The notes under the pieces: model-generated | The model's input: the letters and a program-made list of their open reading frames with translations, nothing else | Told to the model about the DNA's origin: nothing | Database searches by the model: none | Shown: positions 44,770-45,538 of the stretch, piece after piece | Numbering within the stretch: position 1 is the first letter of the stretch | Layout: each line of letters starts with the position of its first letter | Assembly (NCBI RefSeq): GCF_004803475.1 | Contig: NZ_SRKY01000001.1 | Span: 1,178,001-1,242,000 of the forward strand | DNA from: Aliishimia ponticola | GTDB taxonomy: Bacteria; Pseudomonadota; Alphaproteobacteria; Rhodobacterales; Rhodobacteraceae | DNA length: 64,000 nt | Direction: 5' to 3' | Made by a program: the position numbers and the translations under genes

Positions 44770-44923
44770 TCATCGCCCCCTTACGGCTTTGCCGCATTAA
44801 CTCGCACACCCCGCACGGAACGCAACCCCCGCACAACCGAAACGGGTAAAGTCTTAAGAATGCGTAACTTTTTACCCTACGTTAGCTTGCATGAGGCGCA
44901 TAGCTGCATTGCAGCATTGCCCG

Positions 44924-44951
44924 TTGTGCAGGTGCAGCATAACCCTATATC
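44924..44951 (+). promoter_or_regulatory. Predicted promoter of the DUF1127/cuckoo RNA operon
   Basis: TTGTGC (44924-44929) is followed after 16 nt by TATATC (44946-44951), or CTATAT with 15 nt. Transcription would start about 44958, 36 nt before the DUF1127 ATG. The homologous R. sphaeroides operon uses RpoHI/RpoHII heat-shock sigma factors; whether this box is of that type is not decided from the sequence. Confidence 0.4.
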
Positions 44952-45224: not shown

Positions 45225-45245
45225 GGGCTGTAAAGCCCACAACAG

Positions 45246-45337
45246 TTGGTGTCCAGATATCTCCACTCCTCCTCCCTCGGAGATATCGGTCCAAAAGGCG
45301 GTGGTGGCACGTCCTCCTCCCTAGTGTCGCCACCGCC
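45246..45337 (+). ncRNA. Cuckoo-type (CcsR-like) sRNA, unit 1
   Basis: This unit has two hairpins. The first (45256-45287) is gatatctcc/ggagatatc around a loop with cctcctccc (45268-45276). The second (45297-45337) is a 14-bp stem ggcggtggtggcac/gtgtcgccaccgcc (two wobbles) around gtcctcctcccta, motif at 45313-45321. Cuckoo RNAs are defined by paired hairpins with CCUCCUCC in the loops, complementary to Shine-Dalgarno sequences. The unit begins with ttggtgtccag, repeated exactly 100 nt later. Confidence 0.85.
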
Positions 45338-45345
45338 CGACAAGT

Positions 45346-45434
45346 TTGGTGTCCAGGCACCTCCGTCCTCCTCCCTAGGGGGTGCCTGTCCAAAAGCGGC
45401 GATGATGCGTCCTCCTCCCTAGCGTCATCGCCGC
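45346..45434 (+). ncRNA. Cuckoo-type (CcsR-like) sRNA, unit 2
   Basis: Hairpin 3 (45354-45388) pairs caggcacctcc with gggggtgcctg (11 bp) around gtcctcctcccta. Hairpin 4 (45396-45434) pairs gcggcgatgatgc with gcgtcatcgccgc (13 bp, one wobble) around the same 13-nt loop. Compared with hairpin 6, a stem A-T pair is replaced by G-C on both sides, a compensatory change that supports the RNA structure. Confidence 0.85.
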
Positions 45435-45441
45435 ATGAAAT

Positions 45442-45538
45442 TCGAATGTCAGGGGCGCCCGTCCTCCTCCCTAGGGTGAACCTGTCTAAAAGCGGCGGTG
45501 ATGCGTCCTCCTCCCTAGCATCACCGCCGTATTTTTTT
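45442..45538 (+). ncRNA. Cuckoo-type (CcsR-like) sRNA, unit 3
   Basis: Hairpin 5 (45450-45484) is the weakest: cagg/cctg and gccc/gggt with an internal loop (ggc/gaa), but it keeps the same loop gtcctcctcccta. Hairpin 6 (45493-45529) is a perfect 12-bp stem cggcggtgatgc/gcatcaccgccg with the same loop, and it doubles as the terminator. The unit begins with gaatgtcag instead of ttggtgtccag, so it has diverged from the first two. Confidence 0.83.
45493..45538 (+). terminator. Terminator of the DUF1127/cuckoo RNA operon
   Basis: Hairpin 6 (12 perfect base pairs, 13-nt loop) is followed by ta and seven T (45532-45538). It ends the operon before the convergent uvrD gene. The remaining 140 bases to uvrD contain a further 7-bp hairpin ccgtccc/gggacgg (45584-45613) without a U-tract. 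Confidence 0.92.

Follow-up and report, generated by a model that had tools for sequence, protein, structure and literature searches.

What do the repeated hairpins behind a small DUF1127 gene of Aliishimia ponticola represent, and what governs their expression? The stretch of DNA analysed here, called the window in the following, comprises 64 kb (G000:C1:1178001-1242000) of the 4.08 Mb genome. In it, a ccaF1-like DUF1127 gene, the product of which is probably an RNA-binding protein, precedes a series of CCTCCTCCC motifs that share its strand, the first of them 44 nt past the stop codon. The upstream neighbour is an ApbC/Mrp-type NTPase gene and the downstream neighbour a convergent UvrD-like helicase gene, both on the minus strand. 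The locus is a real and well-conserved ccaF1-CcsR operon, one of many and ordinary for its bacterial family. The new and testable part is its likely control by a LysR-type regulator, to which the comparison of promoter sequences points. The features of the locus are compiled in Table 1.

Table 1. Sequence features of the ccaF1-CcsR locus of Aliishimia ponticola, numbered from the first nucleotide of the window
Feature	Position	Strand	Basis or remark
Putative VtlR/LsrB-type operator CGCATAGCTGCATTG	44897-44911	+	motif match, box definition PMC7486931, PMC12595884
Second, overlapping operator copy TGCATTGCAGCATTG (putative)	44905-44919	+	motif match
Putative sigma32/RpoH-like stress promoter	44923-44950	+	22-promoter alignment
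-35 element GTTGTGC (putative)	44923-44929	+	22-promoter alignment
-10 element CCCTATAT (putative)	44943-44950	+	13 nt spacing from -35
DUF1127 gene, ccaF1-like, 76 aa	44994-45224	+	PF06568, 47.5 bits, E 1.5e-12
Hairpin 1, type A, unit 1	45256-45287	+	loop ACTCCTCCTCCCTC
Hairpin 2, type B, unit 1	45297-45337	+	loop GTCCTCCTCCCTA
Hairpin 3, type A, unit 2	45354-45388	+	loop GTCCTCCTCCCTA
Hairpin 4, type B, unit 2	45396-45434	+	loop GTCCTCCTCCCTA
Hairpin 5, type A, unit 3	45450-45484	+	loop GTCCTCCTCCCTA, two mid-stem mismatches
Hairpin 6, type B, unit 3	45492-45530	+	loop GTCCTCCTCCCTA; also terminator stem with T-run
T-run (TTTTTTT) of Rho-independent terminator	45532-45538	+	sequence

On the plus strand of the window CCTCCTCCC occurs six times (at 45268, 45313, 45367, 45411, 45463 and 45507), all within 250 nt, and there is no copy on the minus strand of the 64 kb. 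From the composition one would expect 0.1-0.4 instances per strand (Markov estimate). Every one of the six copies forms a hairpin loop, and motif positions and fold agree with a first-pass annotation of this DNA, which had described six such hairpins with five identical loops on different stems. The hairpins alternate between type A (1, 3 and 5) and type B (2, 4 and 6), the stems of the latter beginning with GGCGG or GCGGCG, and so make up three A-B units. This division was already in the annotation, as was the spacing of exactly 100 nt between the TTGGTGTCCAG starts of the first two units (45246 and 45346). When the 293-nt RNA was folded, a check which the annotation had proposed, it reached -140.1 kcal/mol against -89.5 +/- 4.8 for shuffled sequences (z -10.5), and none of 200 shuffles was as stable. 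The stem differences between hairpins 4 and 6 had been called compensatory. One A-T to G-C change is indeed fully compensatory, but a second change, from T.G to T-A, is one-sided.

The whole 4.08 Mb genome holds only 19 copies of CCTCCTCCC, including the six of the array. The other 13 sites were considered as further CcsR loci; they are not CcsR-like and gave no match to the covariance model described below. In one case a single copy lies in GC-rich sequence about 300 nt downstream of a second DUF1127 gene (L049 841; C9:244432), and this site, too, was not matched by the model.

A covariance model (R1) was derived from 49 A-B units at loci of other genomes, with the window left out. It matches unit 1 at 45255-45337 (48.1 bits), unit 2 at 45354-45435 (51.2 bits) and unit 3 at 45450-45528 (60.2 bits), with E-values from 1.8e-10 to 4e-8; the next-best match in the window has 12 bits, and at E 0.001 no further match was found in the 4.08 Mb genome outside the three units. 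A search with existing family models had also been proposed in the annotation. The Rfam model CcsR1 (RF02791) matches all three units (31.5, 31.4 and 23.8 bits, E 1e-5 to 2e-3), but each of them below the gathering score of 65.3, which taken to the letter is the outcome that the annotation had named as refuting it. Little can be read from so narrow a cut-off, because only two of the 19 scanned array-bearing Rhodobacterales-type loci reach it, each in one unit.

From a MAFFT alignment RNAalifold recovered hairpin B only, and the R1 structure consists of hairpin B alone. Since hairpin A was misaligned by MAFFT, the pairs of A and B were counted separately, anchored at the loop. In the relatives the stem pairs of type B are 96-100% paired and those of type A mostly 93-100%, down to 78% at positions 7-8, compared with 41-83% in a control with shuffled 3' arms; as loop closure was set to maximise pairing, a step absent from the control, the loop-proximal pairs are biased upward and the argument rests on the outer pairs. 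Several pair types occur per stem position. The two mismatches of hairpin 5, at stem positions 6-7, adjoin the 78% positions 7-8 of the family and fall within the range of its type A stems. Therefore they indicate neither decay nor specialisation, the two explanations previously offered for a weakened first hairpin in unit 3.

Conservation of gene order was assessed at DUF1127 relatives collected from other genomes, which are only about 35-65% identical to the Aliishimia ponticola protein and include 33 Rhodobacterales-type loci. Arrays of 2-13 motif copies follow within about 1 kb downstream in 29 of the 33, and none of the 33 has an array on the opposite strand. The paired motif is present in 110 out of 150 genomes of the bacterial family. 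Among 29 loci found by the RNA pattern alone, 22 have a same-strand DUF1127 gene which ends 7-71 nt before the first motif; in one, DUF1127 lies downstream, and in six there is none within the fetched stretch. At none of these 29 loci does the motif occur on the opposite strand, and their arrays hold 2-26 motif copies. Three units are an ordinary array size. The loci L064 (3001), L076 and L088 (Planktomarina, Salipiger and Rhodovulum) have a DUF1127 gene without an exact downstream CCTCCTCCC array; in L064 the operator box discussed below is nonetheless present, with one mismatch. At rhizobial loci (L090-L138) the anti-Shine-Dalgarno (aSD) arrays are found upstream of the DUF1127 gene, and often there are two arrays.

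This organization is that of ccaF1-CcsR1-4 in R. sphaeroides (RSP_6037; RF02791), where two-hairpin units with CCUCCUCCC loops likewise come directly after a DUF1127 gene and on its strand, with a stress promoter upstream (putative here) and a terminator at the end of the array. The present locus differs in having three units instead of four, and in stems which have diverged enough to miss the Rfam gathering score. Structure, independent covariance model, synteny and literature all back the earlier proposal of three CcsR (cuckoo) units behind the DUF1127 gene. A similar modularity is known for RFMSmelA075 and RFMSmelA099, members of the CCUCCUCCC family in Rhizobiales, which combine a variable number of hairpins with an invariant loop and variable stems and for which an aSD function was proposed (PMC3927594). 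In contrast to the window, they have three or four hairpins per RNA and several dispersed copies per genome.

The sequences show the anatomy of the locus, its gene order and terminator, the conservation of its structure and promoter, and its place in the family. What such an array would do is suggested by its relatives, from which we infer its transcription, processing, targets and role under stress. Very probably this ccaF1-CcsR (cuckoo/CIN1) operon gives rise to a stress-induced precursor and, from it, to three two-hairpin sRNAs with aSD loops that block mRNAs. A single stress-responsive promoter would yield a precursor consisting of the DUF1127 mRNA, the 3' six-hairpin array and the terminator. 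By analogy to R. sphaeroides, the three sRNAs would be released from it by RNase E, with participation of the DUF1127 protein. There, ccaF1 and CcsR1-4 form one transcript with an RpoHI/RpoHII promoter, a terminator and cleavage by RNase E (PMC10253847, PMC8625941). In that species flhR mRNA is a target of the CcsR RNAs, which also interact with Hfq (PMC8307010), and CcaF1 is an RNA-binding protein which affects the maturation and half-life of these RNAs (PMC8307010, PMC10253847).

The unpaired loops, 5'-GUCCUCCUCCCUA-3', would mimic the 3' end of the 16S rRNA and pair with the GGAGG-type Shine-Dalgarno sequences of many mRNAs, so that translation is blocked and the mRNAs are destabilised; the stems may serve only to present the loops. 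The loop CCUCCUCCC has been described as an anti-Shine-Dalgarno sequence (PMC3927594). NfeR1 uses three loops of this kind to silence ntrB, the start region of which they cover, and mutation of all three aSD seeds abolished this silencing (PMC10746234). The first-pass annotation had considered both pairing with many mRNAs and titration of ribosomes. Pairing is likely, but titration is not, because the loop has the sense of the 16S rRNA itself, which implies competition with the ribosome for mRNAs. In the genome GGAGGAGG is located 3-10 nt before an ATG at 13 sites, against 4 for a reversed-pattern control. The genes behind these sites, among them those for an ABC ATPase, a DctP solute-binding protein, an EamA transporter and two AMP-binding enzymes, are candidate targets only.

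Many hairpins with one loop motif are also found in the protein sponges CsrB and RsmZ, where the motif is GGA-based and bound by CsrA. The array, too, repeats one loop motif, here the anti-Shine-Dalgarno CCUCCUCCC, and might act mainly by titrating an RNA-binding protein, possibly its own DUF1127 protein, with mRNA pairing being secondary. Such a role would suit the identical loops on unrelated stems, the array of one relative with as many as 26 hairpins, a number beyond the apparent needs of separate sRNAs, and the RNA binding of CcaF1 with its influence on CcsR maturation and half-life (PMC8307010, PMC10253847). We consider it rather improbable, since a precise aSD sequence would be needless for a protein site, the silencing of ntrB by NfeR1 is lost with the aSD seeds (PMC10746234) and the R. 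sphaeroides RNAs are processed into separate units (PMC8625941).

It is very hard to reconcile the data with a row of tandem terminators or a REP/BIME-like repeat without any role in trans. Hairpin 6 and its T-run do form a terminator, and repeated GC-rich hairpins separate the end of one gene from the convergent uvrD-like gene, but a T-run is found behind this last hairpin only and behind none of the other five; moreover, the loop does not vary across the family, keeps to one strand and accompanies DUF1127 in most pattern-found loci, and the genome has no other such array. There is also scarcely a chance that the locus belongs to the rhizobial alpha-r14 (NfeR1) type of sRNA instead of CcsR. 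The corresponding Rfam model (ar14, RF02344) does score higher than CcsR1, with 38.9 bits (E 1.4e-5) at 45248-45391, and seven of the 19 scanned array-bearing Rhodobacterales-type loci reach its gathering score. However, the match in the window stays under that score (58.8) and crosses a unit border, extending over unit 1 and half of the next one, and the array here lies downstream of DUF1127, in its 3' region, whereas rhizobial arrays lie upstream. Alpha-r14/NfeR1 of Sinorhizobium meliloti (RF02344) resembles the window in its hairpins with the identical loop motif. A further likeness is the VtlR/LsrB-type box found in rhizobia before the aSD RNAs as well as before the DUF1127 gene beside them. 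Unlike the array in the window, NfeR1 is an sRNA of three hairpins that is placed upstream of DUF1127, has a sigma70 promoter of its own and is reported to be Hfq-independent. We keep to the ccaF1-CcsR assignment in what follows.

The promoter region of this operon is conserved. In an alignment of 22 upstream regions TGCTGCATgGCAGCATTG is common, followed by tATTGTGCAnnTGCAGCA and in many of them also by CCCCATGT. A scan with the promoter pattern CTTG-N16-18-CTATNT was unconvincing in most relatives, because the spacing differs and the -10 element is CCCCATGT-like. The element TGCTGCATgGCAGCATTG fits the Brucella VtlR motif CAATGCAGCCATGCA (PMC12595884; TGCATGGCTGCATTG on the other strand). 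The published VtlR/LsrB box, GCAT-N3-TG-N3-T (PMC7486931), is present exactly at 44898-44910 in the window, upstream of the promoter; in the family consensus a single fixed base departs from it (AG in place of TG). Only three sites with at most one mismatch to TGCATRGCWGCATTG exist genome-wide, and two of these are the overlapping sites in the window. With up to two mismatches, a VtlR-type element precedes DUF1127 by 30-230 nt in 26 of the 33 Rhodobacterales-type loci and is found nowhere else in the 377 kb of these loci on either strand; one locus, L073, has an exact match to the VtlR motif. Such a site also occurs in 15 of the 29 loci found by the RNA pattern. A box within the 800 nt before DUF1127 is present in 45 out of 47 rhizobial loci, usually at -94 to -155, and several loci have a second box directly before an aSD array. 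Box and sigma32-like promoter together are ultraconserved before the DUF1127-CcsR operon (44897-44950 in the window; promoters of L059-L089). PhaR was also considered as the reader of this site, as the window contains CTGC-N3-GCAG, which we take to be the PhaR operator. PhaR is the less likely reader, since the published VtlR motif covers more of the element and the VtlR regulon includes DUF1127 genes.

No LysR gene was found beside trxB in the Aliishimia ponticola genome, and therefore the LsrB counterpart was located by protein search. The query was an Ensifer gene adjoining trxB, which we take to be lsrB from its position there and its sequence type. An LsrB-like LysR protein is encoded at G000:C1:990637-991503, with 39% identity to the query overall and 72% in the DNA-binding part. 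In each of nine tested Rhodobacterales genomes the query has one clear counterpart, with 37-39% identity and about 228-247 bits; the second-best protein reaches about 130 bits. Identity is 69-74% over the DNA-binding part and 27-32% over the remainder. Thus, conservation extends to the operator as well as to the protein that likely reads it. As sites are inherited among related sequences, conservation alone is no proof of an LsrB-like regulator; independent support for it comes from the fit to a motif that was established in a different bacterial order. Judged by these comparisons, the ccaF1-CcsR promoter is likely under LysR (LsrB-like) control.

We lean towards the broader view that ccaF1-CcsR of Rhodobacteraceae belongs to an ancient VtlR/LsrB regulon shared with rhizobia and Brucella, where this regulator governs DUF1127 genes and aSD sRNAs, and that in Rhodobacteraceae fusion of the array with DUF1127 has combined redox and RpoH control. 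In rhizobia, RNA array and DUF1127 would be separate units, in several loci with a box each, and in Rhodobacteraceae both would be fused in one transcript behind one box region and a heat-shock-type promoter. The fused unit would place a multi-copy anti-SD RNA array under redox (LsrB) as well as heat and singlet-oxygen (RpoH) control. The same operator, DUF1127 gene and anti-SD loop occur together in Rhodobacteraceae and rhizobia despite the swapped gene order, and this shared company suggests a stress circuit inherited from an alphaproteobacterial ancestor. The comparison names an LsrB-like LysR regulator which is unmentioned in the R. sphaeroides CcsR literature searched; for ccaF1-CcsR of Rhodobacteraceae in general, no LysR, VtlR or LsrB link was found in that search, the key CcsR papers being outside its reach.

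The largest array was observed at locus L024 (G146:C1:333449-336505), where 26 CCTCCTCCC copies follow a DUF1127 frame. They are arranged in almost identical tandem blocks with three types of hairpin, which makes this locus an extreme case provided by nature for dosage or sponge models.
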